This document shows positions 4,825 to 20,944 of a stretch of 64,000 nucleotides of DNA, one piece after another. Origin of the DNA: Pectinatus haikarae (GTDB taxonomy: Bacteria; Bacillota; Negativicutes; Selenomonadales; Selenomonadaceae); the NCBI RefSeq assembly GCF_015732185.1, contig NZ_WIQM01000004.1, positions 62,001-126,000 of the forward strand, written 5' to 3'. Numbering within the stretch: the first letter of the stretch is position 1; every line of letters starts with the position of its first letter. The translations under genes and the position numbers were made by a program. Under the pieces are notes generated by a model. It made no database searches and was not told the DNA's origin. It saw only the letters and a program-made list of their open reading frames with translations.

Positions 4825-5613
4825 TTATATTATTTGAGCCATTGCCAGGGCAACAGCTATGTCATTTTTCTGCCTTTTGAGCTTATATTCTGCCAGTTTT
4901 TCAATGTTTTTATCATTGTTTTCCGGCTGTTTTACAGGTTTTTTCGGCATATTTTCCGCTACAAATTTGATATTTTCCGGTATATTGCCTATATTTTCAG
5001 GGAGTTTACCGGCGCATGCCACCATTTGCAGCGCATCTGTGACGTCGACATTAAACAGTTCTGCTGCCTCTACGCCGGTCAGCCATGTTGAATTATTTAC
5101 CAGCTCATGAATCTGATCAGCCGTCACATCTTTTTTTGCATTATCCTGATAGGTTGTTTCAAGTCCCTTTTGAATAGTGTCCAGAACGCTTGCCGCCTGC
5201 AGCAGATCGTTTGCATTTCCCGCGGCCGCCATGCTCGGCTTGTGTATCATGAGATAGGCGTTTTTCGGTATCTGTTTATTGTCGCAGGAAAAAAATATCT
5301 GCGTGGCAATGCTGCCCGCCAGTCCATCAACAATGGCATTGGTCGGTCCGTCATGGCGCTTTAGCATATTTGCTATAGCAGTACCGGCAAATACAGAGCC
5401 GCCCCCGCTGTTGATATAGACATTCAAGGTTTTCCCCTTCAGGCTGTCCAGCTGGTTTTTTATATCGACTGGAAATACATAGCCGTTTACATTGCCGTCT
5501 TCATCACCCAGCCACCAAGACAATAAATTTTTATCCTCATCGTCACATATCTGTCCGGTGACATATAAATCCGCTGATGTGTCAGTCACATTCTTAATTG
5601 CAAATCCTTTCAT
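4825..5613 (-). CDS. Prohead maturation protease, ClpP/SppA-like
   Basis: A 262-residue protein. The ClpP-like domain spans about residues 15-190, with NVYINSGGGSVFAG forming the oxyanion region. The nucleophile is Ser101 in DGLAGSIAT and the general base His124 in MIHKPSM. The C-terminal 60 residues are charged and likely hold a scaffold-like tail. It sits between portal and capsid, and its start overlaps the portal stop (ATGA). It would cleave capsid N-terminal domains inside the prohead. Confidence 0.9.
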   Translation of the reverse strand: MKGFAIKNVTDTSADLYVTGQICDDEDKNLLSWWLGDEDGNVNGYVFPVDIKNQLDSLKGKTLNVYINSGGGSVFAGTAIANMLKRHDGPTNAIVDGLAGSIATQIFFSCDNKQIPKNAYLMIHKPSMAAAGNANDLLQAASVLDTIQKGLETTYQDNAKKDVTADQIHELVNNSTWLTGVEAAELFNVDVTDALQMVACAGKLPENIGNIPENIKFVAENMPKKPVKQPENNDKNIEKLAEYKLKRQKNDIAVALAMAQII

Positions 5614-16444: not shown

Positions 16445-16529
16445 CTTCTGTACTGATGCTCTAACATCAGCACATTTCTTTATGAAATTTTTACTCTTGA
16501 CGTTGCCAGCACATGGCAGCGTCTTTTTT
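16423..16529 (+). ncRNA. Candidate antisense/small RNA over the rep leader
   Basis: The predicted transcript starts about 7 bases after the -10 and ends at a strong terminator (16499-16529). It contains a CTGATG-CTCTAA-CATCAG hairpin (16453-16470) and no ORF with a ribosome binding site. Leftward transcription into rep must cross it, so it is antisense to the rep leader. The layout matches copy-control antisense RNAs of rolling-circle plasmids. Expression is inferred only from promoter and terminator. Confidence 0.55.
16499..16529 (+). terminator. Terminator of the candidate antisense RNA
   Basis: GACGTTGCCA-GCACA-TGGCAGCGTC, a 10-bp stem with one G-T pair, followed by six T. It has no coding sequence just before it, which is what points to a small RNA. 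Confidence 0.85.
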
Positions 16530-16673: not shown

Positions 16674-16704
16674 GGTTACTTCCCTTTCATGTTTTTTAAT
16701 ATGA

Positions 16705-16731
16705 TATAATCACCTACAGGAGATGATTATA
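16705..16731 (+). promoter_or_regulatory. Palindromic extended -10 promoter, copy 1
   Basis: TGATATAATCACC, a spacer TACAGGA, then GATGATTATA. The left arm TATAATCACC contains a TGn-extended -10 box and the right arm is its near-complement (one mismatch). Transcription would begin between the arms, so the arms act as a DNA dyad rather than an RNA hairpin. The right arm also overlaps the ribosome binding site GGAG. Copies 2 and 3 are at 18865 and 19785. Confidence 0.7.
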
Positions 16732-17277
16732 TTGGAACATATACAAGATAAAATTTTTTATCATATTAGAGTAGTTACAACAAAAGAAATTCCTTTTTCA
16801 CTGAGTAAAACTTACACTTTTGGTAAAAAATTAAATAACTACTACTCTTTCTATGAAAGTATGTCTAATCAAACTATCCCTCAATTAGCCAATGAATATA
16901 TTCGTTATGCTCAAGAGATGATCTTTGAAGAAATGCGACAAAAAGATTTCCCTAGTCTCCCATCAAGGAAAACATGTTTATGGTTGATTCCTAATTCTGA
17001 GAATCTATCACAGGCTTTGGTTTTCTGGTTTAAGCAAATGTATAATCCCACCATGTCATCTCTCAAAATATTAAAATTTAGCTGCACCGGAAACATTCAT
17101 TATGCCAATCAAAAATACTTAACTTTAAACATAAATGATGTCAAATTGTTGCGCGAAGATGCCGTAAAATATTGGCAAGGGGATAATGCATCGTGCGATA
17201 ATATTGATACAGAAGTATTATTTGAAGGAACGGCCAAAGTAATTGAAATCAGAGATCCTTTTACAATTAATTTTTGA
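16732..17277 (+). CDS. DUF2441 protein, paralogue 1
   Basis: A 181-residue protein. I choose the TTG at 16732 because GGAG lies 9 bases upstream; the in-frame ATG at 16723 abuts the GGAG. Motifs shared with the paralogue at 18892 are EHIQDKIFYHI at the N-terminus, KTYTFG, a central FPSLPSRKTCLWLIP, then SCTGNIHYA, DAVKYWQG and EVLFEGTAKVIE. This matches DUF2441. The His strand, the CLWL...W segment and the C-terminal Glu strand resemble an ADP-ribosyltransferase-like layout; that is my inference. It is transcribed against the early operon and ends 11 bases inside the gene at 17267-17461. Confidence 0.75.
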   Translation: MEHIQDKIFYHIRVVTTKEIPFSLSKTYTFGKKLNNYYSFYESMSNQTIPQLANEYIRYAQEMIFEEMRQKDFPSLPSRKTCLWLIPNSENLSQALVFWFKQMYNPTMSSLKILKFSCTGNIHYANQKYLTLNINDVKLLREDAVKYWQGDNASCDNIDTEVLFEGTAKVIEIRDPFTINF

Positions 17278-17461
17278 TTAATTCTTCCACATGATATGGA
17301 TCAATAATTTGTCCATGGTAAGTATTTGGATGCACATGAGTACGCGCCGCCATAAGCAGCTGCTCTAACCTATATATTTCTTTTTCATATTCGCTCATTT
17401 CAGCTATCCTTTTTAATTCGTCTTTGCTTACATCGCAGGGATACTTGATAGAATCCTTCAT
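17267..17461 (-). CDS. Small protein convergent with DUF2441 copy 1
   Basis: A 64-residue protein, not recognised. The N-terminal half is helical and acidic (SEYEKEIYRLEQLLMAA); the C-terminal half is histidine-rich (THVHPNTYHG). The ATG follows AGGAGGTGAG inside a leader shared with two other leftward genes. Its 3' end overlaps that of the DUF2441 gene tail to tail by 11 bases, so the two mRNAs are complementary there. It could be an early gene or a partner of DUF2441; no evidence distinguishes these. Confidence 0.6.
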   Translation of the reverse strand: MKDSIKYPCDVSKDELKRIAEMSEYEKEIYRLEQLLMAARTHVHPNTYHGQIIDPYHVEELIKN

Positions 17462-17464
17462 TTT

Positions 17465-17485
17465 CTCACCTCCTATGCTGATTTT
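17465..17485 (-). repeat. Shared leader motif B, copy 1
   Basis: On the minus strand AATCAGCATAGGAGGTGAG immediately precedes the start codon of the gene at 17267-17461. Close copies precede the genes at 19416-19751 and 19983-20174 (AATCAGCATAGGAGTGA and AACCAGTATAGGAGTGAG). The match extends beyond a simple ribosome binding site. Confidence 0.6.
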
Positions 17486-17597
17486 TGGTCACGGTTGTCA
17501 ATGGGTTTAGAAAATAAATAGGTTAAAGAATAAAATTGAAAACCGTAAATACTGGATTAATTCAGTGAAACTCCAATCGCTGTTGCTATTGTGACGA

Positions 17598-17720
17598 CTA
17601 TTTTAACGGTTTTAATAACCAAATAGTGGTATAAGCAGTTGCGACACTTGCAATAACTGATACCGTGATTGATGTTACCGTCGGATGGTTAAACCACCAT
17701 TCAAGTTTAAAAATTTTCAC
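17598..17720 (-). CDS. 40-residue single-pass membrane peptide
   Basis: A GTG start at 17720 follows GGGGGTGAG; translation gives MKIFKLEWWFNHPTVTS, then a hydrophobic stretch ITVSVIASVATAYTTIWLL and KPLK. It is too short for standard gene callers. With the 43-residue ORF just upstream it fills an otherwise empty 436-base gap. A small early membrane protein, for instance one altering the host envelope, is possible. The remaining sequence of the gap, 17462-17597, shows nothing convincing beyond leader motif B. Confidence 0.4.
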   Translation of the reverse strand: MKIFKLEWWFNHPTVTSITVSVIASVATAYTTIWLLKPLK

Positions 17721-17766
17721 CTGCTCACCCCCATCATGATCACCATTAAAATAAAATCTGCATTTG

Positions 17767-17898
17767 TCACTTCATCACAGCCCCCATCAGCACGGTAGCC
17801 ACGACTATCATTAAGACAACCTGTAATGCTTTTTCAAATATAGATGGCTCTTTTGCAAGCCACTTGTTCGTCTGATGCATGACTTTTGTTATTTTCAT
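17767..17898 (-). CDS. 43-residue membrane peptide
   Basis: The ATG at 17898 overlaps the TGA of the upstream gene (TGATG) and has GAGGGATAG before it. The peptide begins MKITKVMHQTNKWLAKEP and ends with a transmembrane-like segment QVVLMIVVATVLMGAVMK. Coupling to the preceding helix-turn-helix gene supports translation. The function is unknown. Confidence 0.45.
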   Translation of the reverse strand: MKITKVMHQTNKWLAKEPSIFEKALQVVLMIVVATVLMGAVMK

Positions 17899-18173
17899 CA
17901 CGCTATCCCTCTTTTTAGATCATCAAGAGCCTTTAGATAATCATCAGGCGTGTTTATTCTTCTGCTCTGTCTGCGTGGCACTGGATTCATAGGCTTGCTC
18001 AATGCTGCCTGTTGTTCGTCCAGATCAGCTAGTGCTTTCAAAGCACAAGAAACGTCAATACTGTATTTCCGGCCAATTCTGTGGCAGCGGAACAGGCCTT
18101 TCTTGCAATACCGTTTCACTGTTGCCAACGGCATATTATTTTTGAGTGCAAATTCTTTTGCAGTCATTCTCAT
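17898..18173 (-). CDS. Excisionase-like helix-turn-helix protein
   Basis: A 91-residue protein with an N-terminal winged helix-turn-helix: MTAKEFALKNNMPLATVKRYCKKG, then a wing with CHRIGRKYSIDV. This is the pattern of phage excisionases and related MerR-like DNA-binding proteins. The C-terminal half is basic, then acidic. The start follows GGAGGCG. It is an early gene in the leftward operon and could bias the integrase to excision or regulate early genes. Confidence 0.65.
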   Translation of the reverse strand: MRMTAKEFALKNNMPLATVKRYCKKGLFRCHRIGRKYSIDVSCALKALADLDEQQAALSKPMNPVPRRQSRRINTPDDYLKALDDLKRGIA

Positions 18174-18234
18174 ATAATCGCCTCCATTGATTTCTATCTG
18201 AAAATCAAATATAATGAACGTAAGTTAATTTTTC

Positions 18235-18789
18235 CTATGAAGCCGTCAGACGTTCCCGCGTCTGCGGCTTTTCTTTTTCCCCGCGTAAATATTTTTCTAG
18301 ATCAAGTTTATATTTTGTATCAAGTTCCATAATGAGGTTGATATTAGAGTTTGTGCGATCAACAAGCCTTTCAGCAATTATTTTTACTTGGGCATAATCG
18401 TCATCAGCCATATCATCGCGACTATTTTTGTTCAGCAGCAGCACAGGTAATTTTTCTAAATCTTTATAAGCAATATTATCTGTAACCTTTAGACTGACGA
18501 TCATGCTTTGTATATGCCGGTCTATTTTTCTGTATCCAAATAATCTTATAAACCCTGTTGATTCAAGCGCAACAGTCGCAGCCGCTGTGAAATTTAGCTT
18601 TGACAGTTTTTTTCTGACTTTAATAGGAATTGTTCTTGTGCCTTTCATTGCTTCGTATATTGCACTCAGGCTGCATCCTACATCTATTGCAAGAGCTTTA
18701 GGAGGCCTGTCACAGCACATTATTGCAAGCTGAAGCATATCTGACACATTTTCAACAAATGAGCTGTCTAACATCGAAGGATCAATCAT
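18235..18789 (-). CDS. Phage regulatory protein, CII-like
   Basis: A 184-residue protein. The ATG at 18789 follows AAGGGAGGTGAT; the longer frame to 18852 has no support. Residues about 10-65 look like a lambda-repressor-type helix-turn-helix (MLQLAIMCCD, LAIDVGCSLSAIYEAMKG). The rest is mixed alpha and the C-terminus is charged. The CII (P2-type) resemblance is weak. It lies divergently from the palindromic promoter of DUF2441 copy 2. Confidence 0.5.
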   Translation of the reverse strand: MIDPSMLDSSFVENVSDMLQLAIMCCDRPPKALAIDVGCSLSAIYEAMKGTRTIPIKVRKKLSKLNFTAAATVALESTGFIRLFGYRKIDRHIQSMIVSLKVTDNIAYKDLEKLPVLLLNKNSRDDMADDDYAQVKIIAERLVDRTNSNINLIMELDTKYKLDLEKYLRGEKEKPQTRERLTAS

Positions 18790-18864
18790 TTCATCACCTC
18801 CCTTGTGTAATTTATTGTCACCATTTGCACAAAAAACACTGGTATAATTCAATTAAAGAAATGC

Positions 18865-18891
18865 TATAATCATCTACAGGAGATGATTATA
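18865..18891 (+). promoter_or_regulatory. Palindromic extended -10 promoter, copy 2
   Basis: TGCTATAATCATC, spacer TACAGGA, then GATGATTATA. Arms TATAATCATC and GATGATTATA are perfectly complementary. Compared with copy 3 the arm base T/A pair is replaced by C/G on both sides, so symmetry is kept. The left arm includes the extended -10 box. Confidence 0.75.
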
Positions 18892-19422
18892 GTGGAACAT
18901 ATACAAGACAAGATTTTTTATCATATTGGCAATTTCGATTGTGGTAAAACTTATACTATAGGATGTCAATTAAATCCATTCTTTGATTATTTCAATCATT
19001 TTGGTTATGAAGGAGCAATCGATTGGGACGAAACAAAAAAATTATTATCTGCGTATCAGTTATATGCACGAGAGCGAATTTTTGAAGATGTGCGTACTGA
19101 AATGTTTCCAAATTTTCCGTCAAGAATGTCATGCATATGGTTAATTCCTTCTGATAACCTATCTAATCGAATCGCTTTTTGGAATACAAATATTTCTCAT
19201 AACTCAAAAATATGCAAACTATCTTGTACTGGAAGGATTCATATTGCAGATGAATCTTTTCTAGCTTCAAGATTCGGTTATCTTCCAACATATCGCACTG
19301 ATGCAATACAATATTGGTCAGGAAAATTTCAATCTAATTCGTTTGTTCATCAAGAAGTTATATTTACTGGCACAATATACGTAATAGAAAAGTACGCTAC
19401 TCTTAACGATATTGTTCAATGA
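18892..19422 (+). CDS. DUF2441 protein, paralogue 2
   Basis: A 176-residue paralogue of the protein at 16732-17277. The GTG at 18892 has GGAG 9 bases upstream and matches the TTG start of copy 1. Shared blocks are EHIQDKIFYHI, GKTYTIG, RERIFEDVR, FPSRMSCIWLIP, CKLSCTGRIHIA, DAIQYWSG and EVIFTGTIYVIE. The divergence is large enough for old duplication or independent capture, while the promoter and first 11 codons are nearly identical. The gene converges on the leftward gene at 19416-19751, overlapping by 7 bases. Confidence 0.75.
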   Translation: MEHIQDKIFYHIGNFDCGKTYTIGCQLNPFFDYFNHFGYEGAIDWDETKKLLSAYQLYARERIFEDVRTEMFPNFPSRMSCIWLIPSDNLSNRIAFWNTNISHNSKICKLSCTGRIHIADESFLASRFGYLPTYRTDAIQYWSGKFQSNSFVHQEVIFTGTIYVIEKYATLNDIVQ

Positions 19423-19751
19423 TGGAGCCTTGGCATATCACTTTCTGATAATGTTCTTTTTTGACATTCTTCAAGTTTTTGCTTAAGTTCGACATTTTCT
19501 TTTTTCAATTCCTGAATTTGATTTATCGTAAAATAGTCATTTTGGTTCTTGCATAAATAAGAGCTAGGATGCCCAAAATTATGTTCAAATTTATCATCAT
19601 TAACTAATGTAGAAGGCGGGATGTCATTTTGTTTTACAGATACAGTCTTCTCTAAATGAGTATGTGTTCCACCTGTTTGAGTCTTGCTGATACAAAGTTC
19701 TTCTTTTTTTATAAGTCGTTTAAATTCTTCTGGCGTACATTTTATTATCAA
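19416..19751 (-). CDS. Small coiled-coil protein convergent with DUF2441 copy 2
   Basis: A 111-residue protein. The start is taken as TTG 19751, eight bases after AGGAG; the longer frame to 19862 would overlap the promoter of the next cassette. It begins IIKCTPEEFKRLIKKEEL, has a His-rich middle (GGTHTHLEK), and ends in a leucine-zipper-like helix INQIQELKKENVELKQKL. It is not recognised. The His-rich patch recalls THVHP in the partner of copy 1, though similarity is slight. Confidence 0.6.
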   Translation of the reverse strand: MIIKCTPEEFKRLIKKEELCISKTQTGGTHTHLEKTVSVKQNDIPPSTLVNDDKFEHNFGHPSSYLCKNQNDYFTINQIQELKKENVELKQKLEECQKRTLSESDMPRLHH

Positions 19752-19756
19752 TATTG

Positions 19757-19775
19757 TCACTCCTATGCTGATTTT
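19757..19775 (-). repeat. Shared leader motif B, copy 2
   Basis: AATCAGCATAGGAGTGA on the minus strand, immediately before the TTG start of the gene at 19416-19751. It abuts palindromic promoter copy 3 with only about 10 bases between, so cassettes 2 and 3 are packed head to tail. Confidence 0.6.
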
Positions 19776-19784
19776 AAAATATGC

Positions 19785-19814
19785 TATAATCACCGTAGAT
19801 GGGAGGTGATTATA
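19785..19814 (+). promoter_or_regulatory. Palindromic extended -10 promoter, copy 3
   Basis: TGCTATAATCACC, a 10-base spacer, then GGTGATTATA; the arms are perfectly complementary. GGGAGG in and beside the right arm lies 9 bases before the ATG at 19816. The spacer differs in length from copies 1 and 2 (10 against 7). Confidence 0.7.
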
Positions 19815-19815
19815 G

Positions 19816-19986
19816 ATGTCAGGGACAGCTAGTACTAAGATTGTAAAAGATAATATAGGCACATTAGCTATTCACATTCTTAACAGTAAAAGAGATTTAG
19901 CTAAAATGTCTTATTCTGAAATACTCAGAGAGTTATCGAATATCATTTGTGATTTACAGGCTGAAATAGATGATTTACATTTTTAA
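19816..19986 (+). CDS. 56-residue protein downstream of palindromic promoter 3
   Basis: Starts MSGTASTKIVKDNIGTLA and ends DLQAEIDDLHF; probably helical. It is shorter than usual gene-finder limits, but it has a promoter, a good ribosome binding site and the same tail-to-tail arrangement (4-base overlap) with a leftward gene. It shows no resemblance to DUF2441, so the promoter unit, not the protein, is what the three cassettes share. Confidence 0.6.
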   Translation: MSGTASTKIVKDNIGTLAIHILNSKRDLAKMSYSEILRELSNIICDLQAEIDDLHF

Positions 19987-20174
19987 AAAAGTCGTTCTTT
20001 TCTTTCTGTTTTTACTTCCGCTATCTCTTGAATTTTAGTGGAATTCAAGAGATAGTTCCCTTTTTCTGAATATGATTCTGATAAAATACGCAGTATCCAT
20101 TGCACATCTTCATATGTTGCCTTTTCTTTAATAAAAATACCGTTAATTGTTTTTACAGCTTTTTCACAATCCAT
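19983..20174 (-). CDS. Small early protein, cassette 3 partner
   Basis: A 63-residue protein starting at ATG 20174, nine bases after AGGAG within leader motif B. Helical: MDCEKAVKTINGIFIKEKA, then VQWILRILSESYS, with a basic C-terminus. Not recognised. It lies directly downstream of the Cro-like gene and should be among the first leftward transcripts. Confidence 0.6.
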   Translation of the reverse strand: MDCEKAVKTINGIFIKEKATYEDVQWILRILSESYSEKGNYLLNSTKIQEIAEVKTERKERLF

Positions 20175-20177
20175 TCG

Positions 20178-20197
20178 CTCACTCCTATACTGGTTTT
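20178..20197 (-). repeat. Shared leader motif B, copy 3
   Basis: AACCAGTATAGGAGTGAG on the minus strand, before the gene at 19983-20174 and overlapping the 3' end of the Cro-like gene. It differs from copies 1 and 2 at two positions. Confidence 0.55.
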
Positions 20198-20409
20198 GAA
20201 TCTTTCCAAGACACTTCATTGCTAAAAAAAATGGTATCTATACTGGCTTTGAATAAATCTGACACCTTCTTCGCTTCTATCAAACTAAAGGGCGTTTTCC
20301 CTAGTTCTCTTTTACTATAGCTTGATTTATTTGATAGTCCAATCTCCTTTGCCATGTAGTCACATGTGTATCCTTTTGTTTTTCGCATTTTGCGGAGGTT
20401 GTTGAACAT
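20185..20409 (-). CDS. Cro-like XRE-family regulator
   Basis: A 74-residue helix-turn-helix protein: LRKMRKTKGYTCDYMAKEIGL, then SYSKRELGKTPFSLIEAKKVS. The ATG at 20409 follows AGGTGAT; the frame to 20460 would cross the promoter. It is the first gene of the leftward early operon, divergent from the CI-like repressor. By position it should act as Cro, turning down repressor synthesis on induction. Confidence 0.82.
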   Translation of the reverse strand: MFNNLRKMRKTKGYTCDYMAKEIGLSNKSSYSKRELGKTPFSLIEAKKVSDLFKASIDTIFFSNEVSWKDSKPV

Positions 20410-20440
20410 ATGATCACCTACTCTCTTTAAGTGTCTTTTT

Positions 20441-20529
20441 AAGATACTTAGATTATACACGGCTTTTAGTATCTTGTAAAGATATATTTAATATTTATTT
20501 CCACATAAGATACTTTCATTGTGTATCTT
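20441..20529. promoter_or_regulatory. Operator cluster of the genetic switch
   Basis: Five half-sites of the form AAGATAC/GTATCTT occur at 20441, 20469, 20479, 20507 and 20523. Two pairs form dyads: GTATCTT with AAGATAT around the leftward -35, and AAGATAC with GTATCTT around the rightward -35. The arrangement is typical of a CI/Cro switch between divergent promoters. Confidence 0.8.
20452..20480 (-). promoter_or_regulatory. Early leftward promoter
   Basis: TTTACA, 17 bases, TATAAT on the minus strand, about 40 bases before the cro-like start. Operator half-sites overlap the -35 and lie just downstream of the -10, so repressor binding would block it. Confidence 0.8.
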
Positions 20530-20547
20530 TAGAAGAAACTTTATAAT
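20519..20547 (+). promoter_or_regulatory. Repressor promoter
   Basis: TTGTGT, 17 bases, TATAAT, ending 17 bases before the CI-like start. The -35 overlaps the operator half-site at 20523, allowing autoregulation or Cro repression. Confidence 0.65.
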
Positions 20548-20563: not shown

Positions 20564-20944
20564 ATGATGAATATTATAAAGAGCCTACGACAACAAAATA
20601 ATTTTACACAAGAAGAACTAGGGCAAAAATTAAATATACAAAAATCTGCTATTTCCAAATATGAAACTGGTAGAACACGTCCCAGCATGGAAACATTGCA
20701 AAAGCTATCAGACGTTTTTAAGGTACCCATTAATGTATTATTAAATGGTTTTGGAATAAAGACCGAAATTTCCGAACAAGAAACTAAGCAGCCTAAGGAT
20801 TTGGCAAAATTCCTTGATCAAACAGAAATTATGTTTGACGGCGAAGTCCACAAGCTGAATGATGAATCACGGCAAAAACTAAGAAATGCTCTGGAATTTG
20901 CATTTTATGAAGCAAAAAAAATGAATAAACGTAAAAAGGATTGA
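20564..20944 (+). CDS. CI-like repressor, XRE family
   Basis: A 126-residue protein. Residues 1-60 are an XRE helix-turn-helix (IKSLRQQNNFTQEELGQKL, KSAISKYETGRTRPSM). The C-terminus is short and helical, with no LexA-type autoprotease. Repressors of this shape are often inactivated by an ImmA/IrrE protease, and one is encoded at 22006-22449. An ATG pair at 20564/20567 follows GAGGTG; either could be used. Confidence 0.82.
   Translation: MMNIIKSLRQQNNFTQEELGQKLNIQKSAISKYETGRTRPSMETLQKLSDVFKVPINVLLNGFGIKTEISEQETKQPKDLAKFLDQTEIMFDGEVHKLNDESRQKLRNALEFAFYEAKKMNKRKKD

Follow-up and report, generated by a model that had tools for sequence, protein, structure and literature searches.

The window analysed here, a 64,000-nucleotide stretch of the Pectinatus haikarae genome (contig NZ_WIQM01000004.1, positions 62,001 to 126,000 of the forward strand), contains three copies of a palindromic element in which an extended -10 promoter box forms part of the left arm and the second half of a Shine-Dalgarno (SD) sequence forms part of the right arm, directly before the start of a rightward gene (here called a cargo gene). 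We conclude that this dyad is real, that as a module it occurs generally and the window is one instance of it, and that its setting, in cassettes antisense to the genes around them, is the surprising part. We also propose, with slightly better than even confidence, that the element acts as a self-insulating unit of promoter and ribosome site, the latter being silenced in read-through RNA in the style of gene e of phage T4.

Within the window, TATAATCAYC-N7-10-GRTGATTATA matches at three sites and no others (16705-16731, 18865-18891 and 19785-19814), with no match in 100 shuffles, and a wider pattern (N5-12) applied to the whole 3.1 Mb of the organism's own genome returned the identical three sites with no further match. 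The three positions given in the original prediction, which had been made by reading the sequence alone, were thereby confirmed and are unique in the genome. Including the TGn that stands directly 5' of every TATAAT, the elements are as follows.

16702-16731, forward strand: element 1, TGn (16702-16704), -10 box and left arm TATAATCACC, 7-base spacer, right arm GATGATTATA, SD AGGAG at 16718-16722.
18862-18891, forward strand: element 2, TGn (18862-18864), left arm TATAATCATC, 7-base spacer, right arm GATGATTATA; a perfect dyad.
19782-19814, forward strand: element 3, TGn (19782-19784), left arm TATAATCACC, 10-base spacer, right arm GGTGATTATA; a perfect dyad.

The spacers differ by 3 within the window. 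Elements 2 and 3 are perfect 10-bp dyads, whereas element 1 has a single C/A mismatch between its arms, so the earlier statement that the differing base is matched on both sides holds for the former two and fails for the latter. In all three, the left arm is the extended -10 box plus CAYC, and the right arm consists of the SD's second half and the spacer to the start (RTGATTATA, followed by TTG, GTG or GATG). The rightward starts, assigned by reading the sequence, adjoin the right arms (TTG at 16732, GTG at 18892 and ATG at 19816), and an alternative in-frame ATG (16723/18883) lies within the right arm, abutting the SD. None of the three elements is among the window's listed -35/-10 promoter-like sites, and they thus lack a good -35 box at the customary distance.

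Two main scans, one of viral contigs and one of one genome per species, yielded at least 120 loci with the dyad and at least 117 loci, respectively; both are lower bounds for host range and counts, and the L-numbered loci cited below overlap between them. Counts of hosts, dyads, families, neighbours and arm pairs given from here on are among the matches listed. In the genome scan, 64 of 128 dyads have an SD and are followed by a start codon, and TGn is found in 54 of these 64 versus 10 of the 64 other dyads; the left arm is TGnTATAAT in the same 54 of 64, which would place the unit's own promoter inside the 5' strand of the stem. Scans with an altered right arm returned sites mostly lacking TGn. 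The hosts carrying the unit span several orders and include Veillonella, Megasphaera, Pectinatus, Peptoniphilus, Tissierella, uncultured Clostridia and a Fusobacteria metagenome-assembled genome. Matching phage records are those of Streptococcus and Listeria phages, and no near match to the Veillonella cassettes L380 and L100 was found among phage records. Genome loci and IMG/VR contigs share the unit together with its following gene in two instances (L016/L380 and L062/L367), and two to three units are clustered in L415, L423, L425, L352, L362, L452 and L062.

Behind the TGn dyads, those of the window included, lie 108 distinct proteins in 69 families (BLASTP, 1e-3), a count for which TGn and a start codon, but not an SD, were required, such that some families may be chance dyads in coding DNA (e.g., L385 and L449). 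Pfam searches with ten following proteins, some cut at 110 residues, gave one match each to DUF2513 (a protein from the largest family, of 14 proteins), DUF2188 and a resolvase, and seven had no match at E ≤ 0.01. Five clusters that each have one upstream sequence are followed by 6, 5, 5, 3 and 2 families unlinked by BLASTP. The presence of one upstream sequence before several families, together with the resemblance of two of the window's cargo genes only at the dyad and codons 1-12 (below), fits cassette exchange at the start codon. The idea of a modular cargo slot is thus supported, with the unit standing before 69 families and one upstream sequence preceding up to six of them.

The cargo genes are also placed in a consistent manner. 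Among 101 distinct elements, 84 of 99 dyad-driven genes have a convergent gene on their 3' side, and 87 of 98 have a gene of the opposite strand on their 5' side, compared with 407 and 504, respectively, for 2106 other genes in 171 loci; this antisense excess has a p below 1e-39 if genes are taken as independent, and the gene caller behind both these neighbour counts and the swap of dyad halves described below is crude. Deposited annotation gives the same picture, with a lone antisense dyad gene in four of seven phage records. The dyad gene of Javan39 (locus 5082-5390) stands alone on the plus strand amid minus-strand genes and overlaps its neighbour, a pattern repeated in Javan227 and Javan166, while in Listeria phage LP-P111 it is reversed between the portal and terminase genes. 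In Javan486 (L521 2050-2291) and Javan288 (L522 2033-2241) the dyad precedes an open frame, 70 and 59 codons long, respectively, that lies on the antisense strand and is unannotated. Javan173 has lone antisense genes, and the dyad was not found there. The convergent arrangement first noted in the window is therefore general across loci and annotated phages.

A second type of palindromic promoter was observed in Streptococcus phages (L131, L134, L141, L165, L177 and others, as well as L515 near 7591). Its short arms (CTGC/GCAG, CCGTG/CACGG or CCGT/ACGG) flank the TATAAT itself before similar lone antisense genes; they vary between phages yet remain complementary, and the SD is not covered.

Covariation of the dyad arms, the range of spacers, pairing kept through sequence change and an excess of G-U pairs together point to pairing of the arms in sense RNA, as judged from comparison of sequences. 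Across 91 distinct elements that have TGn, an SD and a start, spacers of 5, 7, 8, 9, 10, 11, 12 and 13 bases occur, and the Y/R position of the two arms reads C/G in 46, T/G in 36, T/A in 8 and C/A in 1 (p 0.013, kinship uncorrected), the sole C/A case being element 1 of the window. For genome loci alone the corresponding counts are 36, 13, 5 and 0 (p 0.003, kinship likewise uncorrected). Several elements have changed letters and kept their pairing (L432, TTAACT/GGTTAA; L293, AACT/GGTT; L352, CAC/GTG), L351 has a shifted stem (AATCACC/GGTGATT), L509 has a stem with a bulge, and another lone antisense gene of Javan39 has an unrelated stem, ACTTATCCT/AGGATAAGT, before its start. Among the imperfect pairs in 71 hairpins, 37 are G-U and 2 are A-C, with both scored alike. 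GGTGAT is itself part of the SD complement, and the letters conserved beyond the SD and the -10 box, CAYC and the final TATA, are those needed for pairing.

The left arm was also examined with the right side of the element held in place. Searching 37 genomes chosen as unit carriers for TATAAT-N4-14-GGAGGTG-N4-8-ATG returned 139 sites; 25 of these have CAYC (24 with GGTGATTATA and one with GGTGATTGTA), and none of the 114 non-CAYC sites has GGTGATTATA. With a free left arm and a fixed right arm, 20 sites were found in 618 genomes around known carriers, and 17 of the 20 have CAYC. Fifteen of the 20 lie in the starting genomes; the other five comprise two CAYC and the exceptions CTCC, CGAC and AATA. 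A search of 398 genomes (spacer 10-24) gave CAYC in two of two sites. Pooling the genomes that were not preselected, CAYC is present in four of seven left arms, against a chance expectation of about 1/128.

RNA folding predictions were made for the transcript that enters from upstream (read-through RNA) and for the transcript that would start at the element (own RNA). For 59 dyads, the predicted median cost of opening the region from SD to start is 14.3 kcal/mol in read-through RNA versus 3.6 in own RNA, compared with 4.0 versus 2.4 for 18 co-directional controls and 6.5 versus 4.3 for 36 antisense genes with no dyad. The difference is at least 5 in 57 of the 59 dyads, 1 of the 18 co-directional controls and 8 of the 36 non-dyad antisense genes. 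In the window, copy 1 has the weakest hairpin (-5.4, the others being -10.1 and -11.0), and the probability that the start codon is unpaired in read-through and own RNA is 0.40 and 0.32 for copy 1, 0.13 and 0.44 for copy 2, and 0.05 and 0.39 for copy 3.

From these observations we infer a mechanism in which each element would be a portable promoter and ribosome site serving one cargo gene. The extended -10 (TGnTATAAT) would start RNA 6-8 bases downstream, inside the spacer, giving the cargo gene an mRNA with a leader of about 15-20 bases in which the left arm is missing and the SD is free. In RNA entering from upstream, the -10 box and the bases following it would double as an anti-SD: TATAATCAYCT would pair with AGRTGATTATA, and the resulting hairpin would sequester the SD's 3' half together with the spacer up to the start. 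The cargo gene would then be translated mainly from its own promoter, whatever stands upstream, which may benefit genes that are inserted backwards or stacked in arrays where the transcript of one cassette can enter the next. In the window this would apply to cassettes 2 and 3; the scan of the window for terminator-like sites found none between cargo gene 2 and element 3, making cassette 3 the most exposed to read-through. The broader statement, that phages of many Firmicutes orders share a portable and self-insulating front end whose -10 box is also its anti-SD, and that with it unrelated accessory genes can be inserted backwards into phage operons, stacked and exchanged, each expressed solely from its own promoter, we put just short of an even chance.

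Several results weigh against this mechanism. With the cargo genes set antisense, few sources of read-through in the sense direction are obvious, and terminator-like sites on the plus strand already precede elements 1 and 2 (16499-16523 before element 1 and, e.g., 18247-18264 between cargo gene 1 and element 2). The GGAG core lies partly in the loop, and its accessibility is little changed or unchanged in all three copies, with unpaired probabilities in read-through and own RNA of 0.48 and 0.44 (copy 1), 0.51 and 0.68 (copy 2), and 0.66 and 0.75 (copy 3). Accessibility does not predict silencing of copy 1, of which only the opening cost differs (8.8 versus 4.0), and this copy fits poorly. Swapped halves among the dyads fold alike (-13.5 versus -13.3), a control that says little about dyads given that they have one sequence in common. 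Since the SD itself favours G on the right-arm side, the wobble argument is confounded at the Y/R position, and the 12 non-dyad hairpins alone, some of them related, have seven G-U pairs versus one A-C (p 0.07). In viral contigs scanned with the left arm free (spacer 10-24), CAYC is found in 7 of 22 TGn contexts and in 2 of 16 contexts lacking TGn; most of the non-CAYC TGn contexts belong to the second Streptococcus promoter type. Finally, we read the upstream DNA of 13 annotated lone antisense genes in six Streptococcus phages. The dyad stands before three, and it was these three that had drawn attention to the phages. Of the remaining ten, which were not selected for the dyad, eight have TGn before a TATAAT-like box and one has an anti-SD hairpin, from which it follows that antisense placement with an extended -10 is more general than the hairpin.

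The original prediction saw in the dyad a DNA operator with one shared regulator; on this reading a dimeric protein bound over the -10 box would switch all cassettes jointly. This accords with the perfect dyads across the promoter and with the confinement of all three copies found in the genome to one prophage-like region, but the spacing is not fixed, as spacers of 5-13 rotate the half-sites by more than half a helical turn. The hosts belong to several orders, the mismatches between arms are T/G in 36 elements and C/A in one, in keeping with G-U pairs in the sense RNA, and the window's CI/Cro interval holds the repeats AGTATCTT/AAGATACT and not the dyad motif, a comparison made for CI and Cro only. 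The covariation, spacing and host range therefore do not support one shared regulator, and we regard the operator as quite improbable. The argument that an untranscribed left arm favours a DNA operator also does not hold: omission of the arm from the element's own transcript leaves room for an RNA role, and means that the hairpin would depend on read-through. A pairing with no present function, in which an efficient extended -10 and full SD spreads along with its cassettes through homologous recombination and the front end is simply an exchange joint with inherited symmetry, is unlikely in our judgement and deserves more weight than the operator. Near-identical front ends precede different genes, the DUF2441 genes of the window are closely alike only across the dyad and the first 12 codons, and most dyads are one sequence, so that swapped halves fold equally well. 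On the other hand, the arms change jointly, including unrelated or shifted sequences that retain pairing, and the mismatches are nearly all G-U in the sense RNA.

Two further explanations assign the symmetry to the other strand, and we give each of them very little credence. If the right arm were a minus-strand -10 box facing the first, transcription would be bidirectional and would serve a divergent neighbour; the right arm does read TATAAT on the minus strand, where 87 of 98 upstream neighbours also lie. However, TGn on the minus strand is present in only 1 of 91 elements (its rarity follows from the start codon occupying that position), and facing -10 boxes leave the CAYC/GRTG covariation with no reason. 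The hairpin might instead work in opposite-strand RNA, as an attenuator or as a cap for the next gene of that strand. The complementary hairpin is indeed encoded in that RNA, and one copy is terminator-like on the minus strand (18892-18864), but the window's other two copies were not scored as such, the sense G-U pairs turn into A-C mismatches, and many streptococcal loci have a plus-strand T-run terminator beyond the element, hence an A run on the minus strand.

Turning to the proteins encoded in the window, cargo proteins 1 and 2 match DUF2441 with E-values of 2.4e-10 and 3.2e-8 (41 and 34.1 bits, passing the curated cut-off of 25) and are 44% identical to each other, in agreement with their earlier description as DUF2441 paralogues. 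Their genes agree at 26 of 27 positions of the dyad, 33 of 36 positions of codons 1-12, 297 of 538 aligned columns thereafter and 32 of 74 positions before the dyad. Cargo protein 3 (56 amino acids) has a best Pfam E-value of 0.046 and a best PHROG E-value of 0.069, and the three proteins matched no family among the PADLOC anti-phage defence models at E up to 1. DUF2441 (PF10386) is placed in the Pfam ADP-ribosyltransferase (ART) clan (PMC7955679). The structure model made for DUF2441 from a two-sequence alignment was poor (predicted local distance difference test score, pLDDT, of 41) and was not used to judge the ART fold. The DUF2441 family occurs in 1 of 151 genomes of the window's order, namely its own, and no relative of DUF2441 protein 1 was confirmed in viral contigs. 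The only other DUF2441 phage found was Cronobacter phage phiES15, in which the dyad is absent (spacers 5-13 scanned). The expectation that other DUF2441 phages would carry the motif is thus contradicted by the sole one found, and the motif tracks the cassette type and not DUF2441.

The remaining features of the cassettes and the neighbouring control region are as follows.

16732-17277, forward strand: cargo gene 1, TTG start, 181 amino acids, DUF2441 by profile match.
17267-17461, reverse strand: small convergent gene, 64 amino acids, 11-base overlap with cargo gene 1.
17470-17485, reverse strand: motif B leader of the convergent gene at 17267-17461.
18892-19422, forward strand: cargo gene 2, GTG start, 176 amino acids, DUF2441 paralogue.
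19416-19751, reverse strand: small convergent gene, TTG start with SD AGGAG, 111 amino acids, 7-base overlap with cargo gene 2.
19760-19775, reverse strand: motif B leader.
19816-19986, forward strand: cargo gene 3, 56 amino acids, only weak family matches.
19983-20174, reverse strand: small convergent gene, 63 amino acids, 4-base overlap with cargo gene 3.
20182-20197, reverse strand: motif B leader.
20185-20415, reverse strand: Cro-like helix-turn-helix (HTH) gene, probably first in the leftward operon, start uncertain.
20425-20541: repeats AGTATCTT/AAGATACT, between the Cro-like gene and the CI-like gene; probably operators, and different from the dyad.
20564-20944, forward strand: CI-like repressor gene, on the strand of the cargo genes.

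The tail-to-tail overlaps of 11, 7 and 4 bases bear out the predicted range of 4-11, and the leader motif B (AAAAYCAGYATAGGAG), said to be common to the leftward genes, has three exact matches (17470-17485, 19760-19775 and 20182-20197), each 5' of a leftward start. All three convergent pairs have the dyad at one border and motif B at the other. An early operon, beginning with the Cro-like gene (20185-20415), appears to include the leftward genes and extends to genes with a replication-protein match, a PcfK-like match (below cut-off), a PcfJ-like gene and DUF3102, while the CI-like, KilA-N and M78 peptidase genes lie on the strand of the cargo genes. A terminator-like hairpin of 17 pairs follows cargo gene 3 on the plus strand (20020-20056), within the coding part of the convergent gene.

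Some further dyads were observed before genes of other kinds. In L017, L047 and L049 the dyad precedes a gene that has a resolvase domain and weakly matches a MerR-type HTH, and which we take to be IS607-like; for such units, protection from outside transcription would make sense. In the sister species Pectinatus frisingensis (L124/L387) the unit stands before a gene that resembles the MSVFLISYDLN... start seen in Veillonella and is broken by an early stop. Near-identical dyads lacking TGn, TATAATCATCCC...GGGATGATTATA, are present in uncultured Oscillospiraceae and Lachnospiraceae (L390, L395, L405, L410 and L428) before a common 120-residue gene (MNKxELQ..., HTH-like by eye), and these may represent an autoregulated operator, in contrast to units of the window type.

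Should the proposed reading be true, cargo genes across Firmicutes phages, many of them with no assigned function, are marked by a signature of about 25-33 bases and could be listed by promoter instead of by homology. The signature also reveals genes that annotators missed, as in two of the six annotated phages with the dyad. The element would moreover be a compact natural insulator, a single sequence that serves as promoter, as ribosome site and as a lock against read-through.

No description of this unit was found in a limited search of the open-access literature, and we provisionally consider the type of mechanism to be already known and the portable front end for antisense cargo to be the new part. 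The closest parallel is T4 gene e, and also soc, 49 and I-TevI, where RNA initiated upstream folds and hides the ribosome site; for gene e the late promoter encodes the 5' strand of the stem, and long transcripts yield 100-fold less lysozyme (PMC3014915). A like hiding of the ribosome site in upstream-initiated RNA is predicted for the dyad unit. The T4 cases are phage late promoters on single genes, whereas in the dyad unit a host-type extended -10 would itself be the anti-SD, in a portable form that serves 69 families of antisense cargo among the matches listed. The dyad unit is also comparable to IS10/Tn10, in which a fold-back RNA hairpin over the start guards a mobile gene from outside transcription. 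A similar shielding from read-through is predicted here, but IS10/Tn10 involves a single transposase and its end sequence, while the dyad unit is a front end common to many cargo genes. Lastly, prophage morons are cargo genes that have been inserted singly among the genes of a phage and that the lysogen often expresses (PMC7067206). The dyad-driven genes are likewise single cargo genes among phage genes, lone, apart from their neighbours and with their own promoter (as read from sequence), and they differ from morons in having a defined, shared promoter-SD-hairpin and a near-constant antisense orientation.

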